This document shows positions 42,107-56,793 of a stretch of 57,836 bases of DNA, one piece after another. The notes under the pieces are model-generated. The model was not told the DNA's origin and made no database searches. It saw only the letters and a list, made by a program, of their open reading frames with translations. This DNA comes from Anaerolineae bacterium CG2_30_57_67 (GTDB taxonomy: Bacteria > Chloroflexota > Anaerolineae > Anaerolineales > Villigracilaceae), in the NCBI GenBank assembly GCA_001872455.1, contig MNXJ01000070.1, positions 1 through 57,836 of the forward strand, given 5' to 3'. Each line of letters begins with the position of its first letter. Position 1 is the first letter of the stretch. The translations under genes and the position numbers were made by a program.

Positions 42107-44167
42107 ATGCGTAAGTTATTTGCTATTTTGAGCCTGCTGGTTGTGGCGAGCATGGTGCTGGCCGCCTGCGGCCCGACCACTGCCCCGGTGACTGAAGCCC
42201 CGGCTGCCCCCGCTGCGACTGTCGCTCCGGCCCCCGCCGTGACCGAAGCCCCTGCTGTTGCGACGTTCACGTCCAAAGACCCCACCACCTTCACCGTGGC
42301 TGAGTCGGATGTCTCCATTGACACCCTCGACCCCGCCCTGGCCTACGACACCGCTTCTGGGGAAATTCTGCAGAACACCTACGAAGGCCTGGTCTTCTAC
42401 GATGGCGAAGCCACCGATAAATTCGTGCCGCAGCTGGCCGAATCCTGGACGACCTCCGCTGATGGCACCGTCTGGACCTTCACCATCCGCAAGGGTGTCA
42501 AATTCCACAATGGCGACGAAATGACCGCCGCCGATGTGGCCTATTCGTTCCAGCGCGGCCTGCTTCAGGGCGGTTATTCCTCCCCGCAGTGGCTGCTGGC
42601 CGAGCCCTTCTTCGGTGTTGGCAATGATGACATCACGATGATTATCGATGAGGGCGCTTCCGCTGACGCTCGCGATACGCTTGTCGCCAACGACCCGGCC
42701 GTCTTGACTGCCGCTTGTGATAAAGTCCAGGCCGCCATCGTCGCTGATGACGCTGCCGGCACCGTCACGATGACCCTCGCCCAACCGTGGGGACCTTTCC
42801 TTGCCACCATCGCTCAAAGTTGGGGTTCGGTGATGGACAAGAAATGGGTCATGGATAACGGCGGCTGGGATGGCACTTGCGCCACCTGGCAGAACTTCTA
42901 TGGCATGGCTTCCTCCGATGACCCCTTCTCTGCGATTGAGAACGGCACCGGCCCCTTCAAACTGGACAGCCTCAAGCAGGGTGAAGAAGTTGTCATGGTT
43001 CGCAATGACGCCTACTGGCGTGACCCCGCCAAACTGGAGCGCGTTGTTCTCAAGAGCGTTCCCGAATGGGGCACCCGCTTCACCATGATGCAGGCCGGTG
43101 ATGCCGACCTGGCCACCGTCCCGCCTGCCAACCGCTCGCAGATGGACGAATTGGTCGGCGCCTTCCAGGTCTACGATGCCGCCAGCAACACCTACGGCCC
43201 TGTCGCTGATGTTTGCAACTACGACTCGACCGCTCTGGCCGCCGCCAAGTACACCGCCTGCGCCGCTGGCGAGGCTGGCAATGGCGCGCCCTTCCTGGGC
43301 CGCTTTGGCCGCCCAGGCATTTCGCAGGATGTCATCCTCTTCAACTTCGCCATCCAACAGCCTGAAGGCGGCAACCAGTACATCGGTTCTGGCGCCCTTG
43401 ATGGCAATGGCGTCACCCCCGATTTCTTCGCTGATGAGCACATCCGCAAGGCCTTCGGCTATGCCTTCGACTGGGAAACCTTCATCACCGATGTTTGGAA
43501 AGGCGAAGCGGTACAGTCCCTCCAGCTGACTCTGCCTGGTATGCCCGGCTTCTTCCTGGATACCCCGCACTATGCCCTTGACCTCGACAAAGTCACCGCT
43601 GAATTCAAGCTGGCTGACCTCGACCACGACGGCATTGCCGCTGGCGACGACCCCGAAGGCGACGTTTGGACGACCGGCTTCCGCGTTCAGATGGCCTACA
43701 ACCAGGGCAATAACACCCGCCAGACCATTGCCGAAATTCTGGCTGGCAATCTGTCCGGCATCAACAACAAGTTCGTCGTTGAAACCCTCGGCCTGCCGTG
43801 GGCCGCTTACCTGCGCGCCCAACGCGCCAAACTGCTGCCGATTATGACCGGCGGCTGGTTGGAAGACATTCACGACCCGCACAACTGGTACCAGCCCTAC
43901 ACCACCGGCACCTATGGTGGCCGCCAGAACCTGCCCGCTGACATCAAGGACCAGTTCAAAGCCTTCCTTGACCAGGGCGTGGCTGAACTTGACCCCGTCA
44001 AACGCGGCGAAATCTACAAACAGGCCAACCAGCTGTACTACGACCTGGCCGTTGGCATCCCGCTCGTTCTGACCACCAGCCATGGCTACAGCCAGCGCTG
44101 GGTGGACGGCGTCATCCTGAACCCCATCTTCCCCGGCAACTACTACTACACCATCTCCAAAAAGTAG
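42107..44167 (+). CDS. Oligopeptide-type ABC solute-binding lipoprotein (SBP_bac_5)
   Basis: This 686-residue extracytoplasmic lipoprotein has the lipobox VLAAC (Cys21), a Thr/Ala/Pro linker, and the SBP family 5 pattern: YEGLVFYDGE, LAESWTTSADGTVWTFTIRKGVKFHNGDEMTAADVAYSF, FKLDSLKQGEEVVMVRN, and KAFGYAFDWETFI. It delivers peptide or similar solutes to the permeases of operon 1. It is longer than the usual 500-550 residues because of a calcium-loop-like insert (DLDHDGIAAGDDPEGD). The GAGGAG ribosome site is 9 nt before the ATG. Confidence 0.93.
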   Translation: MRKLFAILSLLVVASMVLAACGPTTAPVTEAPAAPAATVAPAPAVTEAPAVATFTSKDPTTFTVAESDVSIDTLDPALAYDTASGEILQNTYEGLVFYDGEATDKFVPQLAESWTTSADGTVWTFTIRKGVKFHNGDEMTAADVAYSFQRGLLQGGYSSPQWLLAEPFFGVGNDDITMIIDEGASADARDTLVANDPAVLTAACDKVQAAIVADDAAGTVTMTLAQPWGPFLATIAQSWGSVMDKKWVMDNGGWDGTCATWQNFYGMASSDDPFSAIENGTGPFKLDSLKQGEEVVMVRNDAYWRDPAKLERVVLKSVPEWGTRFTMMQAGDADLATVPPANRSQMDELVGAFQVYDAASNTYGPVADVCNYDSTALAAAKYTACAAGEAGNGAPFLGRFGRPGISQDVILFNFAIQQPEGGNQYIGSGALDGNGVTPDFFADEHIRKAFGYAFDWETFITDVWKGEAVQSLQLTLPGMPGFFLDTPHYALDLDKVTAEFKLADLDHDGIAAGDDPEGDVWTTGFRVQMAYNQGNNTRQTIAEILAGNLSGINNKFVVETLGLPWAAYLRAQRAKLLPIMTGGWLEDIHDPHNWYQPYTTGTYGGRQNLPADIKDQFKAFLDQGVAELDPVKRGEIYKQANQLYYDLAVGIPLVLTTSHGYSQRWVDGVILNPIFPGNYYYTISKK

Positions 44168-46512: not shown

Positions 46513-47214
46513 GTGATTCCTTTTCCCCGTTTTTTCCTCTTATTCATCCCCGTTGGATTGTTCTTCCTGGCCTTCAACGCCCCGCGCGCCCAGGCGCAAA
46601 CCCGCCTTCTAGCCGCCACCCCCACCATTGACCGGCTGGCAAAACCCACCGTCCCGGCCAACCCATCGCAGGCCGATTTGGGCGCGCAGGATTACTGGTT
46701 GTACTGCTCACCCTGCCACGGTGACCAGGCGCAAGGGTTGACCGATGATTTTCGCCGCCAATATCCGCCCGAAGACCAGAATTGCTGGAAGTCGGGCTGT
46801 CATGGCCGTCGCCCCTACCCAAACGGTTGGACGATTTCCACCCCCGTTCCGGCGCTGGTCGGGCCGGGAGCGCTGATGAAATTTTCTGACGCCGCATCTG
46901 TTTTTGCGTACATGCGCGTTGCCATGCCCTTTCAGAAGCCCGGCTCGTTGGACGATGATACTTATTGGCGCATTACCGCGTTTGTGATGCGCCAAAACGG
47001 CTACCGCCAGGATTCCGCCCCGTTGGACGCGGCCAACGCCCCCGCGGCGACCATCCCGCGCAGCGCCACGCCCCCGGCGGCGATGCCCACCCCAGCCGCG
47101 CCTGCTCCCCCGGCGCAATCGTTCGCTTCCGCCGATTGGTTTGCCGCGGGCGCTTTCTTCGCCCTCCTTCTTTTGATTATTTTCCTGATTCGCCGTTCCG
47201 GGACAAAATCATGA
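46513..47214 (+). CDS. Membrane-anchored c-type cytochrome
   Basis: This 233-residue protein starts at GTG and has an N-terminal signal peptide (LLFIPVGLFFLAFNAPRAQAQ). The heme motif CSPCH occurs in QDYWLYCSPCHGDQAQGL; a second CWKSGCH (CX4CH) follows 33 residues later. Candidate axial methionine is in MRVAMPFQKPGSL. The rest is a Pro/Ala-rich stalk and a C-terminal membrane segment (FFALLLLIIFLIRR). It is an outward-facing electron carrier. Its stop overlaps the next ATG (ATGA), linking it with a solute-binding lipoprotein. Confidence 0.88.
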   Translation: MIPFPRFFLLFIPVGLFFLAFNAPRAQAQTRLLAATPTIDRLAKPTVPANPSQADLGAQDYWLYCSPCHGDQAQGLTDDFRRQYPPEDQNCWKSGCHGRRPYPNGWTISTPVPALVGPGALMKFSDAASVFAYMRVAMPFQKPGSLDDDTYWRITAFVMRQNGYRQDSAPLDAANAPAATIPRSATPPAAMPTPAAPAPPAQSFASADWFAAGAFFALLLLIIFLIRRSGTKS

Positions 47215-49431: not shown

Positions 49432-52266
49432 ATGTCGAAAAACCGATTAATGTCCATTTTGGGCTTGCTCGTCGTCGTCAGTATGGTGCTGGCCGCTTGC
49501 GGCCCCGCCGTCACTGAAGTTCCGGCGACGGCTGTCCCTGTCGCAACTGAAGCCCCCACCGCTACCCCCGTCCCGGTTCGCCAGGGCGCGTGGGTTGACA
49601 GCGTGGTATTCACCAGCATTGACAATGCCGATGAAGCCGTCAAACAGCTTCAGGCTGACCAGATTGATGTCTTTGCCGAAACGGTTGCCAACCCCAACAC
49701 CTTCAAGACCGTTGCGGCAGATGCTAATCTGTCTTACGCCACCTCCTTCGGTTCCTACACCGAGTTGACCTTCAACCCGGTTTTGACCTTTTCGGATGGC
49801 CGTCTCAACCCGTTTGGCGATGCCAAAATCCGCGAGGCGATGAACCAGCTGATTGACCGCAACTACATCGTGCAGGAAATCTACGGCGGTCTGGCCTCCA
49901 CGAAACTGCTGCCGCTCAACTCGGCCTTCCCCGATTATGCCCGCTATGTGGATACCGCCCGCGCATTGGAAGCCAAGTACGCTTTCAACGCCGATGCCGC
50001 CAAAGCCACCATCGCCGCCGAAATGCAAGCCAACGGCGCGACCTTGGGAACGGATGGCAAGTGGATGTTCGACGGCAAACCGGTTACCATCATCTTTGTC
50101 ATCCGCATCGAAGATGAGCGCAAAGCGATTGGCGATTACATTTCCGGCATTCTCGAAGACGCCGGTTTCACCGTAGACCGCCAGTACAAGAGCCGCTCGG
50201 ATTCTTCTCCCATTTGGTATCGCAGCAACCCGACCGACGGTCAGTGGAATATTTACACCGGCGGCTGGATTACCACGGCTGTTTCGCGTGATGATGCCAC
50301 CAACTTTGCCTTCTTCTACACCAATCTGGGCCTCGGTTCGCCCTTGTGGCAGGCGTATGCCCCCAGCGAAGAATTTTTTGCCGTTTCTGAACAACTCTGG
50401 AACAGTGACTTCAAAGACATGGACGAGCGCGGCCAGCAGTTCCGCCAGGCGATGGAACTGGCCATGCAAGATTCCGTGCGCGTTTGGCTGGCTGACCAGC
50501 AAGCCTTCAGCCCCTTCAAGGCCAACGTCAAACTGGCGTATGACCTGGCGGGCGGCATCTCTGGCTCCCGCCTGTGGCCCTACACCCTGCGATTCACCGA
50601 TAAAGAAGGCGGTGAAATGCGCGTCGCCATGTCGGGCATTTTGACCGAACCCTGGAACCCCATCAATGGCTCCAACTGGATTTCCGACTCTTCGGCCAAC
50701 CGCGCTACCGGCGACGTGGCCGCCATGCCCGACCCGTACACCGGTCTGGTTTGGCCGCAACGCATCGAAAAAGCCGAAGTGGTTGCCAAGGAAGGCCTGC
50801 CCATCACCAAGAGCCTCGATTGGGTTGACCTGAAATTCCAGCCTGAAGTTACCGTTCCGGATGACGCCTGGGCCGATTGGGACGCCAACACCCAGAAATT
50901 CATCACCGTCGGCGAAGCCAAAGCGATTGCCGCCAAAGTGACCGATTTTGAAACCCAGGCTGCTGCTCTGGCTGGCGCGGTGGATTTTGCCGCGTTGGAC
51001 GATGCCGCCCTGGTTCAATTCGTCACGGACTACGCTGCCAAGTACACCGAAGTCACCGGCTATGCCGTGGATGTCGCCCCGTCCTTCGAGTCGGAAGACG
51101 CCAAAGCCGCCGTCACCGCTACAGTGGAAGAAATCAAAGCCGCCGCTGCTGAAGAGCAGGCCGCCACGTTGCTGGGATTTGCCAAAGACACCGTTGCCGC
51201 TCTCGATGGCGGCGAAGCCTTTAGCATTGCCTCGCGTGATTTCTCCACCGCCTTTGCGAAAACCGTTGTCTATTACCCCGCCGACCTGTTCACCTCTGTC
51301 AAGTGGCATGATGGCTCCCCGCTTACCATGGGCGACTTTGTCATGGGCATGATTATGACCTTTGACAATGGCAAACTGGGCAGCGCTATCTATGACGAAA
51401 ACGCCGCCTCCAGTGTGGACAGCTATCTCTCTCACTTCAAGGGTGTCAAAATCGTCTCCACCGACCCGCTTGTCATTGAAACCTACGATGACTTCTATCT
51501 GCTCGACGCCGAGACGATGATTAGCACCTGGTGGCCGGTTTACTCCTACGGTCAGGCGCCCTGGCACAACCTGGCGCTTGGCGTCCAGGCCGAAACCGAC
51601 AACAAATTGGCTTTCTCCTCCGGTAAGGCCGAAGCCAATCAGATAGAGTGGATGTCCTTCGTGGCCGGCCCCAGCCTGGAAATCCTCAAGGGCTATCTCG
51701 ATGCTGATGTTTCCAGCGGTTTCATCCCCTACGAGCCGACCCTCGGCCAGTATGTGACCACGGATGAAGCCAAAGCCCGCTTTGTCAACCTGCAAACTTT
51801 CTACGGCGCGCACAATCACTTCTGGCTCGGCACCGGCCCCTTCATCCTCGATAAGGTCTTCCCGGTTGAAAGCACGCTCACGCTCGTCCGCAACCCAGAC
51901 TTTGTTGACCCGGCGGATAAATGGGCTGGCTTCGGCGAACCCAAACTGTCCACCGTCATCGTGGACGGCGCTGGTCAGGTGACGATTGGCGCGGAAGCCA
52001 CCTTTGATGTTATGGTGACTTACGCTGATGCGCCCTACCCCGCCGCCGAAATTGCTGGCGTCAAGTACCTGGTCTTCAACGCCAAAAACGAACTGGTCGC
52101 CACTGGTGAAGCCACCCTGGTGGAAGACGGCAAGTATCAGGTCGTGCTCAGCGCCGACGTGACCAAGGGCCTCGAAGCCGGTTCCAACAAAATCGAAGTT
52201 GCTGTTTCCTCGAACGTGGTCAGCATTCCCACCTTCGCCAGCTTCGAATTTGTAACCGCCCCGTAA
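49432..52266 (+). CDS. Solute-binding lipoprotein with circularly permuted SBP_bac_5 lobes
   Basis: This 944-residue lipoprotein has lipobox VLAAC (Cys23) after an AGGAGG ribosome site. Right after the linker it starts with the segment that is normally in mid-protein (WVDSVVFTSIDNADEAVKQL then FGDAKIREAMNQLIDRNYIV). The segments usually at the N-terminus come later: VKWHDGSPLTMGDFVMGMIMTFD near residue 625, GTGPFILDKVF and LVRNPDFVDPADKW near 800-830. So the two halves are exchanged in order. An Ala/Glu-rich helical insert (about 490-600) separates parts of the second half, and an Ig-like domain (about 845-944) ends the protein. Expected to bind peptide-like solutes for operon 2. Confidence 0.88.
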   Translation: MSKNRLMSILGLLVVVSMVLAACGPAVTEVPATAVPVATEAPTATPVPVRQGAWVDSVVFTSIDNADEAVKQLQADQIDVFAETVANPNTFKTVAADANLSYATSFGSYTELTFNPVLTFSDGRLNPFGDAKIREAMNQLIDRNYIVQEIYGGLASTKLLPLNSAFPDYARYVDTARALEAKYAFNADAAKATIAAEMQANGATLGTDGKWMFDGKPVTIIFVIRIEDERKAIGDYISGILEDAGFTVDRQYKSRSDSSPIWYRSNPTDGQWNIYTGGWITTAVSRDDATNFAFFYTNLGLGSPLWQAYAPSEEFFAVSEQLWNSDFKDMDERGQQFRQAMELAMQDSVRVWLADQQAFSPFKANVKLAYDLAGGISGSRLWPYTLRFTDKEGGEMRVAMSGILTEPWNPINGSNWISDSSANRATGDVAAMPDPYTGLVWPQRIEKAEVVAKEGLPITKSLDWVDLKFQPEVTVPDDAWADWDANTQKFITVGEAKAIAAKVTDFETQAAALAGAVDFAALDDAALVQFVTDYAAKYTEVTGYAVDVAPSFESEDAKAAVTATVEEIKAAAAEEQAATLLGFAKDTVAALDGGEAFSIASRDFSTAFAKTVVYYPADLFTSVKWHDGSPLTMGDFVMGMIMTFDNGKLGSAIYDENAASSVDSYLSHFKGVKIVSTDPLVIETYDDFYLLDAETMISTWWPVYSYGQAPWHNLALGVQAETDNKLAFSSGKAEANQIEWMSFVAGPSLEILKGYLDADVSSGFIPYEPTLGQYVTTDEAKARFVNLQTFYGAHNHFWLGTGPFILDKVFPVESTLTLVRNPDFVDPADKWAGFGEPKLSTVIVDGAGQVTIGAEATFDVMVTYADAPYPAAEIAGVKYLVFNAKNELVATGEATLVEDGKYQVVLSADVTKGLEAGSNKIEVAVSSNVVSIPTFASFEFVTAP

Positions 52267-52346: not shown

Positions 52347-53474
52347 ATGACTGAAACGCTCCAACCTTCGCCTGTTCGCAAACCATCTCGCTTTGGCGCC
52401 CTGACGCGCATCGCCAAATATACCGCCGTGCGCCTGGTGACCTTGCTTTTCACGGTTGTGGTCGGCGTTTACCTGACGATTATGATTGCCAACATGGGCG
52501 GTTATGTGGATGAAATTCGCCGTGGCGAAATTGGTGAAAAAATTCAGATGTTGGCGTTAACCGATAAAACCATCAAAAACCTGCCGCCCGAAGCGCGCGC
52601 CAAACGCCTGGCCGATTTAATCCGCCTGGAAGAAAAACGCTATGGTCTCGACCGCCCCTTTGTTGTCCGCAGCTTCAGTTACCTGGCGGATGGTCTGACG
52701 CTCAACCTGGGACGTTCACAAAATATGACCAGCGACAGCGGCTCACGTCAGGTGCGTCTGATTTTGCTGGAACGCCTGCCATCCACGTTGATTTTGTTCG
52801 GCACGTCTAACCTGTTTTTGTTTTTTCTCAGTCTTTTTTGGGGACTTTCGCTTTCGCGCCAGTACGGTAGCTTTTGGGACAAACTGGTGATTGCCCTGTC
52901 GCCGCTTTCCGCAGCGCCCGGCTGGTTTTACGGCATTTTTTTGATAGTTTTGTTCGCCGCCTACTGGAAAATTCTCCCTTTTGGCGGCATGGTTTCCTCG
53001 CCACCGCCCGCCGAACCGTTGACCTATTTCCTCAGCATGCTCGTGCACATGATTCTGCCGGTTCTGGCAATTACCCTCAGTTCTATTTTCATCAGCACCT
53101 TCGCCGACCGAACTTTTTTCCTCATCTACTCCAGCGAAGATTATGTCGAAATGGCAAAAGCCAAAGGGTTGGAAGCCAAAGACATTGAACGCAAATACAT
53201 TTTGCGCCCCACCCTGCCCAACATCATCACCAATTTTGCCCTGCTGCTGATTGGTTTGTGGACAGGCGCCCCCATTTTTGAAACCATCTTCAACTGGCCC
53301 GGCCTGGGACGGGTTACCTTCCAGGCGGTTGGGCTGTACGATACGCCGGTCATCGTCGCCTCCACTGTGCTTTTTGCCTACCTGTTGGCGATTACCGTTT
53401 TCCTGCTCGACTTCATCTACGCCCTGGTTGACCCGCGCGTAAAAATCGGCGGCGGAGAAGGAAAAGCGTCATGA
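52347..53474 (+). CDS. ABC transporter permease (OppB-like)
   Basis: This 375-residue permease starts with a cytoplasmic tail, then ARLV-type first helix (AVRLVTLLFTVVVGVYLTIMIANMG). The first external loop is long (about 60-110). GLDRPFVVRSFSYL and EAA loop KAKGLEAKDIERKYILRPTLPNI follow, and it ends LVDPRVKIGG. It is the partner of the next gene, which starts within its stop (ATGA). Confidence 0.92.
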   Translation: MTETLQPSPVRKPSRFGALTRIAKYTAVRLVTLLFTVVVGVYLTIMIANMGGYVDEIRRGEIGEKIQMLALTDKTIKNLPPEARAKRLADLIRLEEKRYGLDRPFVVRSFSYLADGLTLNLGRSQNMTSDSGSRQVRLILLERLPSTLILFGTSNLFLFFLSLFWGLSLSRQYGSFWDKLVIALSPLSAAPGWFYGIFLIVLFAAYWKILPFGGMVSSPPPAEPLTYFLSMLVHMILPVLAITLSSIFISTFADRTFFLIYSSEDYVEMAKAKGLEAKDIERKYILRPTLPNIITNFALLLIGLWTGAPIFETIFNWPGLGRVTFQAVGLYDTPVIVASTVLFAYLLAITVFLLDFIYALVDPRVKIGGGEGKAS

Positions 53475-54814
53475 AAACTATCAAACGAACTTTCGCCGAA
53501 CTGGCGCAATACCCTTCCGCCGTGCTTGGCCTGGTGATTATCGCCGTCTTTGTCGTCATCTCCATTTACGCGGTCATCGCCATCCCCTACCAGAAAGCCG
53601 TGGATTTGTGGCGCGGCGGCGAAAGAATCTGGTACAAAACCCCAAAAATGGTGCCGCCCACCTGGGTCAACCTCTTCCGCGCCGAAAAATTACCCGACAC
53701 CTTCAGCCTCAACACGCTGGATGACGCCTCCACCAAACAGGCCACCCCCTCCGGCGACGGCCAGAAAATCACCATCACCCTCGACTTTGATTACAACTAT
53801 GACTCCTTCCCCCAGGAACTCTCGTTGTATTTCACTTCGACTTTTGCCCAAAAAGCGCCTTTCGTTTCCGCAGTTTGGGTTGCGCCGGATGGCCGCCAAA
53901 CCCGCCTGGTAGATTACGCCCTGCAAAGCCCCAAACAAACCTTCCGCTTTTCGCAGGATAAAAAGCTGGTCACGCGCCTGTTTGGGAAACTGCCTCAAGA
54001 AGCCCTGTTCGCCGTCCCCAAATCGGACCCGCTCACCCCGCTGAAAGGGAAGTACCAGATTCAACTGCAGGTGACCACCTTTGAAAAAGACTCCACCGTC
54101 GACGTGGAATTTGTCCAATACGGCCAGGTATACGGCATGGCGGGCACCGACCATCAACGCCGCGACCTGTCGATTGCCCTGCTGTGGGGCATGCCGGTTG
54201 CGCTCTCCTTTGGCCTGATTGCCGCCCTCGGCACCTCGCTTGCCGCCATGGTGATTGCCGCCTTCGGCGCCTGGTACGGCGGCTGGATTGACGAACTCAT
54301 TCAGCGCATCACCGAGGTCAACCTGGTGCTGCCCTTCCTGCCAATTCTCATCATGATTGGCACGTTCTATGACCGCAGCATCGTCACCATTCTGACAGCC
54401 ACCATCCTGCTCAGTATTTTTGGCGGCTCTATCAAAGGCTACCGCGCCATCTTCCTGCAAGTGCGTGAAATGCCCTACATCGAGGCCGCGCGCGCCTACG
54501 GCGCCGGTGACGCCCGCATCATTTTGCGCTACCTCTTGCCGCGAATCATCCCCCTGCTGATTCCCGCGCTGGTGACCGGCATTCCCGGCTACGTCTTCCT
54601 GGAGGCCTCGCTGGCCGTGCTTGGCCTGGGCGACCCGGTGCTGCCCACCTGGGGCAAAATTATTCAGGATGCAGAATTTAACGGCGCACTGTTCAACGGC
54701 CTCTATTACTGGATTTTGGAACCCGCCGCCCTGCTGATGATTACCGGCCTGGCCTTCTCCATGCTCGGCTTTTCCCTCGACCGCATCTTCAACCCCCGCC
54801 TGCGAGGTCTGTAA
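53471..54814 (+). CDS. ABC transporter permease (OppC-like) with large external domain
   Basis: This 447-residue permease is about 100-150 residues longer than usual. TM1 (YPSAVLGLVIIAVFVVISIYAVIAIP) is followed by an external domain of about 180 residues that is beta-rich (KITITLDFDYNYDSFPQELSLYF, KYQIQLQVTTFEKDSTVDVEF), then the conserved core with GTDHQRRDLSIALLWGMPVALSFG and EAA loop RAYGAGDARIILRYLLPRIIP. The insert may dock the large permuted solute-binding protein. Confidence 0.92.
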   Translation: MKTIKRTFAELAQYPSAVLGLVIIAVFVVISIYAVIAIPYQKAVDLWRGGERIWYKTPKMVPPTWVNLFRAEKLPDTFSLNTLDDASTKQATPSGDGQKITITLDFDYNYDSFPQELSLYFTSTFAQKAPFVSAVWVAPDGRQTRLVDYALQSPKQTFRFSQDKKLVTRLFGKLPQEALFAVPKSDPLTPLKGKYQIQLQVTTFEKDSTVDVEFVQYGQVYGMAGTDHQRRDLSIALLWGMPVALSFGLIAALGTSLAAMVIAAFGAWYGGWIDELIQRITEVNLVLPFLPILIMIGTFYDRSIVTILTATILLSIFGGSIKGYRAIFLQVREMPYIEAARAYGAGDARIILRYLLPRIIPLLIPALVTGIPGYVFLEASLAVLGLGDPVLPTWGKIIQDAEFNGALFNGLYYWILEPAALLMITGLAFSMLGFSLDRIFNPRLRGL

Positions 54815-55770
54815 TGGCTGACCAACCTTTACTTCGATTGGAAAATCTCACCCTGCACTTTCGCACCGGCAAAGGCATCGTCAAAGCGGTGGATGGCATC
54901 AACTTCAGCCTGGGCTACAAAGAAGCCGTCGTCGTGCTGGGCGAATCGGGCTGCGGCAAAAGCTCGCTCGCCAAAGCCATTTTGCGTCTGCTGCCGCGCA
55001 ATGTGGATAGTTACTCTGGCAAAGTTTATCTGGAAGACCAGGAACTGATGGCGCTTTCGGATGAAGAATATCGCAAACAAGTGCGCTGGGTGCGCATGTC
55101 CATGGTGCCGCAAGCGGCCATGAACGCGCTCAACCCGGTGCTGAAGGTGGGTGACCAGGTGGCCGAACCGATGATGATTCATCACGGCGTTGGCCGCGAG
55201 CAGGCGCTGGAGCAGGCCGCGAAAATGTTTCAGCACGTTGGCGTTCCGGTGGATTTTATTGACCGCTATGCTTTTGAATTGAGCGGCGGAATGCGTCAGC
55301 GCGTTGCCATTGCCATGGCGCTCATCACCGCCCCCAGCCTGATTATCCTCGACGAACCGACTTCTGCGCTGGATGTCATTACCCAGGCCAACATCTTCAA
55401 CGTTCTTAAGCGCATCAAAAAAGAACTGGAAATCAGTTTTGTGCTCATCACCCACGACATCGCCACGTCCAGCGAGCTGGCCGACCGCGTAGCCGTCATG
55501 TACGCCGGGCAAATCGTCGAAGTGGGTGACGCTGCCAGCTTTTTTGAAGAACCCCTGCATCCCTACTCGCGCATGTTGATGGCTTCCGTCCCACGCCTGC
55601 GTGGCGAAACCGAGCCAGAATTCATCGTCGGCCAGCCGCCCAGCCTGCTCGACCTGCCGATCGGCTGCCGCTTCGCCGATCGCTGCCCGCTGCGCTTTGA
55701 AAAATGCGCCCAAGAGCCGCCCGTGTTCGAAAAATCGGGCAGCACCGTCAAGTGCTGGAAATACGCTTAG
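54814..55770 (+). CDS. ABC transporter ATPase (OppD-like)
   Basis: This 318-residue ATPase has [12 protein letters not shown] (Walker A), [26 protein letters not shown] (Walker B) and ITHDIATS. The Q-loop is SMVPQAAMNALNP. C-terminal cysteines CRFADRCPLRFEKC and VKCW are the oligopeptide-type tail. TAATG overlap with the preceding permease start/stop shows translational coupling. Confidence 0.94.
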   Translation: MADQPLLRLENLTLHFRTGKGIVKAVDGINFSLGYKEAVVVLGESGCGKSSLAKAILRLLPRNVDSYSGKVYLEDQELMALSDEEYRKQVRWVRMSMVPQAAMNALNPVLKVGDQVAEPMMIHHGVGREQALEQAAKMFQHVGVPVDFIDRYAFELSGGMRQRVAIAMALITAPSLIILDEPTSALDVITQANIFNVLKRIKKELEISFVLITHDIATSSELADRVAVMYAGQIVEVGDAASFFEEPLHPYSRMLMASVPRLRGETEPEFIVGQPPSLLDLPIGCRFADRCPLRFEKCAQEPPVFEKSGSTVKCWKYA

Positions 55771-55779
55771 GAGTCAATC

Positions 55780-56793
55780 ATGGTCGCACCCGCTCCCATT
55801 CTCACACAAGAAGAAACAGCCGCGCCCCTGCTGGAAATTAATGACCTGCACGTTTGGTTTGAACTGCGCCGCTGGGGATTTAGCCACGCTGGTTACGTCA
55901 AAGCCGTCGATGGCGTCACCTTCAACCTGAACTACGGCGAATCCATCGCCGTCGTTGGCGAATCGGGCTGTGGAAAATCCAGCCTGATGAAAACCATTCT
56001 CGGCATCAACAAACCGACCGGCGGCCTCGTCCGCTTTCAGGGCCGCGACATCAACCACTTTTCCCGCGCCGACTGGCACGCCTACCGCGCCCAGGTGGGC
56101 TATGTGCAGCAAGACCCGTTTGGCGCCCTGCCGCCTTTCATGAATATTCACCAAATTTTGGAAGAACCGCTGATTGTACACGGCGTCAAAGATTCGACGG
56201 AGCGCGACCGGCGCGTGCGCAAAGCCATGGAAGAAGTGCGCCTGACCCCGGCGGATGACTTCCTGCAAAAATTCCCGCACATGCTCAGTGGCGGACAGCA
56301 ACAGCGCGTTGTCATTGCCCGCGCTATTATTTTGGAGCCAAAAATTATTGTCGCCGACGAGCCGGTTTCCATGCTCGACGCCTCGGTGCGCGTGGAAATT
56401 CTCAAACTGCTGCGTGGCTTGCAGCAGTTGCACAACCTGGCCGTCATTTACGTCACCCACGACCTCTCCACCGTGCGCTATTTCTCCGAGCGAGTCTTCG
56501 TCATGTACGCCGGTAATGCCGTCGAAAAGGCGCCCATTCTCAACCTGCTGCGCACGCCGCTGCATCCCTACTCGCAGGCCTTGCTGGACGCCACCTCGGA
56601 CCCCGACGCCAACAACGCGTTGACGTTTCGTGAACTGCCGCCCGGCGAGCCGCCCAGCTTGGTCAATCCGCCCAGCGGCTGCCGCTTCCATCCGCGCTGC
56701 AGCAAAATGATCGCGGGATTGTGCGACGTGGCAAAACCGTCAGAGATTGAGCGCACTCCTGGTCATCAGGTGGCGTGCTGGCTCTACAAATGA
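55780..56793 (+). CDS. ABC transporter ATPase (OppF-like)
   Basis: This 337-residue ATPase has [41 protein letters not shown] and THDLSTVRYFSERV. The tail has CRFHPRCSKMIAGLC and VACW cysteines. It completes the ATPase pair of operon 2. Its stop overlaps the start of a small membrane protein gene. Confidence 0.94.
   Translation: MVAPAPILTQEETAAPLLEINDLHVWFELRRWGFSHAGYVKAVDGVTFNLNYGESIAVVGESGCGKSSLMKTILGINKPTGGLVRFQGRDINHFSRADWHAYRAQVGYVQQDPFGALPPFMNIHQILEEPLIVHGVKDSTERDRRVRKAMEEVRLTPADDFLQKFPHMLSGGQQQRVVIARAIILEPKIIVADEPVSMLDASVRVEILKLLRGLQQLHNLAVIYVTHDLSTVRYFSERVFVMYAGNAVEKAPILNLLRTPLHPYSQALLDATSDPDANNALTFRELPPGEPPSLVNPPSGCRFHPRCSKMIAGLCDVAKPSEIERTPGHQVACWLYK

Follow-up and report, generated by a model that had tools for sequence, protein, structure and literature searches.

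A circularly permuted family 5 solute-binding protein in an Opp/Dpp-type operon of Anaerolineae, and a second permuted order among its relatives

Introduction

The DNA analysed here, called the window below, is the whole of contig MNXJ01000070.1 (57,836 nucleotides) of Anaerolineae bacterium CG2_30_57_67. At 49432-52266 on the forward strand it holds an intact open reading frame (ORF) with an ATG start, which codes for exactly the 944 residues that a preliminary description of the window had assigned to it. According to that description, the encoded protein is a family 5 solute-binding protein in which the half with the IVF and VRxA motifs comes first and the half with WHDG, GTGPF and NPDF comes after it, as if the chain had been circularly permuted. 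The locus thus raises the question of whether the swapped order is real and is kept among relatives, and, if it is, how such a protein serves an ATP-binding cassette (ABC) importer. Circular permutations found in nature typically date back to an ancient event between remote families. The binding protein of E. coli DppABCDF has the classical order.

Results

The two halves of the window protein are swapped

The motifs were found in the order described earlier, as VDSVVF (residues 55-60), KIREAMNQLIDR (132-143), VKWHDG (623-628), GTGPF (800-804), NPDF (821-824) and DKW (829-831). When the Pfam profile PF00496 (SBP_bac_5) was compared with the piece comprising residues 1-394, residues 53-293 matched profile positions 146-360 (E 9.9e-22); in the piece 395-840, residues 623-833 matched positions 27-142 (E 2e-7; 30.9 bits, slightly below the curated cut-off of 32.4). 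The whole protein reached 104.7 bits in two stretches, well within the family, and gave no colinear match in the classical order, as positions 146-360 precede 27-142. As an internal control, the two classical binding proteins encoded in the window (at 42107 and 47205) each matched PF00496 in one colinear stretch. Because the Pfam blocks of the 944-residue protein are reversed while those of the classical proteins of the window are colinear, its order is swapped. A second control failed: hhalign of the family profile A1 against the classical 42107 protein (P0002) aligned only 25 columns, in the signal peptide, and the block order therefore rests on Pfam and on the solved structure 7fi3 instead. 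The cut falls between profile positions 142 and 146, that is, between the NPDF...DKW segment and the VDSVVF strand, and the classical chain's end and start are joined at about residue 393/394 (GG-EMRVAM), near window position 50610. Both places agree with those proposed in the preliminary description.

Both phmmer and the family profile gave Thermococcus kodakaraensis OppA (7fi3) as the best solved chain, the next chain having an E value of 7.6e-11. The family profile aligned with 7fi3_A in two swapped blocks (E 2.2e-48), with query residues 478-731 on chain positions 64-307 and query residues 56-306 on positions 313-583. An alignment with OppA had been suggested at the outset as a check, and it came out as a permutation predicts. 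Both blocks of the window protein are homologous to one unpermuted protein and lie swapped within one chain, as in a naturally circularly permuted protein. Together with the conserved order presented below, the swapped blocks in PF00496 and in 7fi3 confirm that this is a circularly permuted family 5 solute-binding protein.

AlphaFold2, run with the 33-row alignment A1, predicted one confident fold for the window protein (predicted local distance difference test (pLDDT) 90.2, predicted template modelling score (pTM) 0.85). The signal peptide and the linker that follows it were modelled with low confidence, and a helical stretch at about residues 493-600, an insertion without counterpart in most relatives, with moderate confidence (block means 56-86). 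In a comparison that keeps chain order, residues 49-392 of the model superimposed on residues 335-756 of 7fi3 (Z 27.1, root-mean-square deviation (rmsd) 2.5, 339 residues aligned), the next chain giving Z 23.1. Foldseek with the whole model also listed 7fi3 first (E 3.4e-20), at template modelling (TM) scores of only 0.30/0.38 and rmsd 7.0. The bilobed fold of cluster C was recovered in parts, the first half by the window model and the second by the profile and by the model of an order-B relative (see below). The preliminary description had placed an immunoglobulin (Ig)-like domain after the second half. Residues 841-944 are indeed beta-rich in the model, from which the label Ig-like is plausible; a Pfam search with these last 104 residues gave no significant match, and the fold of the domain alone was not searched.

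Order A is conserved across a broad family

The first scan of genome contigs gave 34 loci, 32 of which showed by tblastn the order of the window protein (order A, Ce-Cl-N), while L041 was cut and uninformative and L042 had another order (order B). Searches with A1 produced matches in 40 of 400 genomes of the phylum, in all 9 genomes of chosen loci, in 21 of 245 from the class and 8 of 84 from the order of G393, in 17 of 199 from the phylum of G400 and in 3 of 8 from the order of G784; these genome sets overlap, and some of the matches are weak and partial. Further members in the classical order were sought in the order of G553, where 1 of 15 genomes matched, the same genome as before (G553), and in the order of G403, where 2 of 101 matched, namely G403 itself and one weak match. 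The window's own genome has one copy of the gene, the other eight matches there being confined to query residues 1-79 (signal peptide and linker).

A census was taken of 117 ORFs from the fetched loci, after removal of identical or contained ORFs and of those below 100 bits. Among the latter were ordinary binding proteins of some 540-600 residues that matched weakly and in part (L083, L084 and L121-L125), and matches left outside the census include second copies in G332, G392 and G397 and copies in G402, G404, G406 and G407. Order A was found in 102 of the 117, 87 with the C-terminal domain and 15 without it (L027, among the 15, is cut by a contig end); six ORFs have order B, one has the classical order, and eight are fragments uninformative as to order. 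The search for homologues that had been recommended with the preliminary description thus yields an order that is conserved across a broad family. The C-terminal domain was detected in 88 ORFs, the 87 of order A and one fragment (L116). We found no duplicated segments, as duplication intermediates would have, inside any of the 117 ORFs. Adjoining copies of family genes, the arrangement expected before a permutation by duplication, occur at L022, L075 (its first copy is also L072) and L079.

A second permuted order, reached from another cut

The six order-B ORFs (L042, L073, L135, L136, L140 and L143) have the order Cl-N-Ce. In the five that have a start, the match begins at about residue 214-216 of the window protein, after a hydrophobic, signal-like segment recognized by eye; from there it covers both halves, passing the order-A cut, and stops at about residue 205-214. 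The 5' end of L140 is missing, and L135 has only a TTG start near the contig edge. Inside these chains the order-A ends are joined by a short linker, and the order-B cut site maps to a turn between two strands in the window protein model. For the L073 protein, AlphaFold2 was supplied with rows of other B proteins and unchanged fragments of A proteins, and gave a model with pLDDT 89.5 and pTM 0.87. Residues 216-754 of this model superimposed on residues 34-530 of 7fi3, across the order-A cut (Z 28.2, rmsd 3.1, 469 aligned; next chain Z 15.1, 359 aligned). An hhalign comparison of A1 with an order-B protein displays the colinear part only, as one alignment is printed. The Ig-like domain is absent from all six order-B forms, which suggests, at most, that the domain hinders re-cutting.

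Five of the order-B ORFs lie in Chloroflexota genomes and the L042 genome is labelled Rhodobacteraceae; because of the other five, the L042 contig is likely to have been mis-binned. The genome in question, G403, carries both L042 and L129, whose relatives here are mostly from Chloroflexota, and the contigs of both may be mis-binned. Order-A and order-B genes share the genomes G393, G403 and G922.

If B had arisen by a single re-cutting, the order-B proteins would be expected to group together. The careful tree has 38 rows, comprising the 15 order-A ORFs without the C-terminal domain, the six of order B, the ORF in the classical order, a single fragment and, from the 87 order-A ORFs with the domain, a set of 15. 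In this tree L042 and L136 group with L072 (order A), and L143 groups with L107, L129, L134 and L138 (order A); L073, L135 and L140 share a clade with four order-A ORFs (L039, L133, L142 and L146) and with L089 (classical order), which stands beside L135 and L140. The label B requires four changes, and well-supported branches force four, one of them dependent on L089; such counts cannot separate a gain of B from a return to A. Forcing B into one clade costs 364 log-likelihood units (approximately unbiased (AU) test, p 9.8e-57). Separate trees of the segments Ce, Cl and N (34 rows, L089 excluded) also reject one clade of B, at p 0.035, 3.3e-45 and 6.5e-6, with three, five and four changes, respectively. 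The rejection by Ce is weak, the neighbours of L073 differ among the three segment trees, and several rows differ in composition. As judged by these trees, order B is not one clade; the chain was therefore probably re-cut, or reverted, several times, and the second permuted order was very probably reached more than once.

Compared with 7fi3 and other classical proteins, the entire family is permuted. Within the family, order A is probably the older state, because the most divergent members and a 17-row deep group have it in a FastTree tree of family members whose root was chosen on those most divergent members.

The ORF labelled classical, L089 (genome G553), is truncated at its 5' end and starts inside the gene at a contig edge. 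It comprises the end of the N half and all of the C half up to the equivalent of residue 393, followed by seven more residues, a stop codon and OppB. With its 5' end missing, L089 may be either a gene in the classical order or an order-A gene with an extra half behind it.

The operon and its variants

The features of the window are collected in Table 1. The LAAC sequence at the start of the protein is one that we take to be a lipobox. Downstream the genes follow in the order OppB, OppC with a long insert, OppD and OppF, an order kept in relatives. The set has the two permeases and two ATPases of an Opp/Dpp-type importer: both permeases match PF00528 above the cut-off, and the best NCBIfam matches are to Opp/Dpp models, below their equivalog cut-offs. 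In the preliminary description, the insert had contributed to the suggestion of a distinct transporter class. The suggestion holds only in part: the insert of about 175 residues is indeed unusual, and the partners are of OppB, OppC, OppD and OppF types, with NCBIfam matches below the curated cut-offs. Of 46 loci examined, 29 gave a match to the insert, beside order-A and order-B binding proteins. At six deep-branching order-A loci (L076 and L078-L082), OppC was matched at 27-31% and the insert was unmatched, so that it is diverged or absent there.

Table 1. Features of the permuted binding protein gene and of the genes that follow it in the window
Feature	Position	Strand	Basis
Circularly permuted family 5 solute-binding protein gene, 944 aa, order A (Ce-Cl-N + C-terminal domain)	49432..52266	+	ORF, Pfam, relatives
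Signal peptide with presumed lipobox LAAC, residues 1-24	49432..49503	+	By eye; low-confidence predicted helix 5-19
Classical C-terminal half, placed first, residues 49-393	49576..50610	+	PF00496 profile 146-360; 7fi3 335-756
Turn between two strands, residues 213-216, cut point of order-B relatives	50068..50079	+	Relatives' alignments; DSSP of model
Classical N-terminal half, placed second, residues 394-832	50611..51927	+	PF00496 profile 27-142; 7fi3 64-307 by profile
Helical insert, residues ~493-600	50908..51231	+	Gap q495 to ~q605 in most relatives; moderate-confidence helices
Beta-rich, plausibly Ig-like C-terminal domain, residues 841-944	51952..52263	+	Predicted structure; detected in 87/102 order-A ORFs
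OppB-type permease	52347..53474	+	PF00528; best NCBIfam matches below cut-off
OppC-type permease, 447 aa	53471..54814	+	PF00528; best NCBIfam matches below cut-off
Insert of ~175 aa in OppC	53591..54115	+	No significant Pfam match covers the stretch
OppD-type ATPase	54814..55770	+	Best NCBIfam matches below cut-off; gene order
OppF-type ATPase	55780..56793	+	Best NCBIfam matches below cut-off; gene order

Among ORFs with at least 600 bases of downstream sequence, an OppB gene lies at most 2,500 bases downstream of 73 of the 81 order-A ORFs that have the C-terminal domain, 78 of all 93 order-A ORFs, four of five order-B ORFs and the one classical-order ORF. The order-A ORFs not followed by OppB are the fusions L012, L022 and L039, tandem genes (the second of L022, L072 and the first of L079) and, with flanks of about 700-1,500 bases, L091, L092, L096, L102, L107, L118, L134, L138 and L146.

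In two of the fusions (L012:6726-10478 and L022:3203-6853, both on the + strand) an order-A binding protein lies behind a protein kinase domain (PF00069 and PF00496); by their domain content, these look like kinases with a permuted binding protein as an outside sensor. In the third (L039:7008-10232, + strand) it lies behind a matrixin-like metalloprotease domain (PF00413, E 8.2e-6, HEIGHTLG). No transporter genes were found beside L039, whose genome also carries the order-B gene L073. In the window itself, a small protein with a signal-like start and a CSPCHG motif resembling a haem-binding site by eye is encoded at 46513-47214 (+), between two Opp-type gene sets.

Discussion

It is highly likely, in our judgement, that the window protein is the binding protein, lipid-anchored as its lipobox indicates, of an Opp/Dpp-type ABC importer, and that its chain is circularly permuted. 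The chain runs from the strand after the NPDxW segment to the classical C-terminus, on into the classical N-terminal half and back to its starting point, with the Ig-like domain added. As in family 5 and DppABCDF, the anchored protein would close on its ligand between two lobes and dock on OppB-OppC, and ATP binding would drive release and import. Joining the old ends and opening a surface loop should leave the lobes and the hinge intact. As the chain now starts, and the C-terminal domain is attached, at adjacent points of the fold, the anchor and the Ig-like domain would be expected to emerge from the binding protein next to each other. The ligand is probably an oligopeptide, which we put at about an even chance, because the nearest solved relative, Thermococcus OppA, has a bound pentapeptide, and we infer that the window operon may import peptides.

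Beyond the preliminary description, some relatives are permuted a second time, and one may have gone back to the classical order. For the permutation of the window protein, the most likely origin is duplication followed by trimming in an ancestor, no intermediate having been seen. In a related clade, the chain would then have been cut anew at a second place three times or more, or re-cut with later reversion. One interpretation of all these results, which we regard as fairly likely, is that permutation is ongoing in one operon-encoded family: starting from an old order A, the chain would have switched to B three times or more, always by way of one turn and once the Ig-like domain had been lost, L089 would be back in the classical order or a partly duplicated intermediate, and the proteins would mostly serve the same type of importer.

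One could envision several alternatives. The preliminary description itself had cautioned that the swapped order might reflect an assembly rearrangement near 50610, or two different incomplete domains, and the sequences do come from draft genomes. However, order A recurs in 102 of 117 fetched ORFs, the predicted fold is one and confident, and both blocks match complementary parts of the single chain 7fi3; we therefore reject both readings for order A and consider them exceedingly improbable. Another view is that the family consists mainly of sensors or scaffolds rather than transport proteins, as might be read from the two protein kinase fusions and the matrixin-like fusion, all of which lack a following OppB gene. 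This seems very unlikely, given that an OppB-type gene follows the window's own gene and 78 of the 93 order-A ORFs with sufficient flanking sequence. A substrate other than peptides (an oligosaccharide, an opine or a metal chelate) is a serious contender, if somewhat short of an even chance: the structure matches listed also include family 5 proteins with sugars, chitin oligomers, opine-type compounds and nickel complexes, whereas the best match by both sequence and structure is a peptide-bound OppA.

The repeated origin of B could also be questioned. If B arose once, its scatter on the tree would have to come from gene conversion between A and B paralogues in one genome. The presence of A and B genes together in G393, G403 and G922 would allow this, the Ce segment rejects one clade only weakly, and L073 changes neighbours among the segment trees. 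Nevertheless, one B clade is rejected by each of the three segment trees, and all three place L042 and L136 by L072, and L143 by L107/L129/L134/L138, so that conversion would need separate tracts in the same pairs. We think that this explanation is unlikely, and prefer repeated switching between A and B.

Several points weigh against our reading of an operon-encoded importer family in order A. The search profile was built from order-A proteins and may favour finding that order, and the named records are nearly always metagenome-assembled genomes. The NCBIfam binding-protein equivalogs Opp4A and Opp5A score far below their thresholds (28 of 650 and 25.6 of 600 bits). OppB is near only 5 of the 12 order-A ORFs without the Ig-like domain, and it follows none of the three fused order-A ORFs (two kinases, one matrixin-like), so that not all family members feed a transporter. 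The aligners keep chain order, and hence the fold was superposed on 7fi3 in parts; confidence in the models was judged by pLDDT and pTM.

The family is well suited as a natural case in which to study how circular permutation comes about. Relatives that share an operon setting have orders A and B, and perhaps the classical order, and in some cases A and B are present in one genome, so that the mechanism of permutation (duplication and trimming, intermediates, where the chain is cut) and what it costs can be traced in sequences and examined by experiment. Annotation that relies on domain order may break up or shorten such proteins. Permuted binding proteins appear in the sensor-engineering literature, and family 5 now joins the binding proteins with a natural permuted form, which would be useful for permutation-built sensors. 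Among the literature matches listed, from a search that most subscription journals lay outside, we found no report of natural permutation of family 5 proteins, and for binding proteins in general nothing on point beyond one study (PMC4990184).

That study describes a naturally permuted binding protein of "Type Ic / cluster Bc", TpMglB-2 (Tp0684) from Treponema pallidum, with a solved structure and measured glucose binding (PMC4990184). It resembles the window protein in being a lipoprotein with a natural circular permutation that has been assigned to an ABC importer and whose order is kept in relatives; unlike the window protein, TpMglB-2 has a cluster B glucose-binding fold and a permutation within the N lobe, and one permuted order is described for it (PMC4990184). 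No cluster B chain is among the structure matches listed for the window model, which is not evidence against kinship with TpMglB-2. A review gives duplication and fission-fusion as models of permutation and names DNA methyltransferases as a permuted family with intermediates (PMC3320104). That family, too, has natural permutations, with documented intermediates, and consists of enzymes; the different orders described here are instead found in binding proteins that belong to a single type of operon, with five of the six order-B ORFs in one bacterial order. E. coli DppABCDF has the same gene content and the mechanism expected of the window operon (PMC12136057). The closest known counterpart is 7fi3, a family 5, cluster C protein both halves of which match the window protein by sequence and, in parts, by fold; 7fi3 has the classical order, whereas the window protein starts at the equivalent of its chain position ~313 (entry residue ~335) and adds an Ig-like domain.
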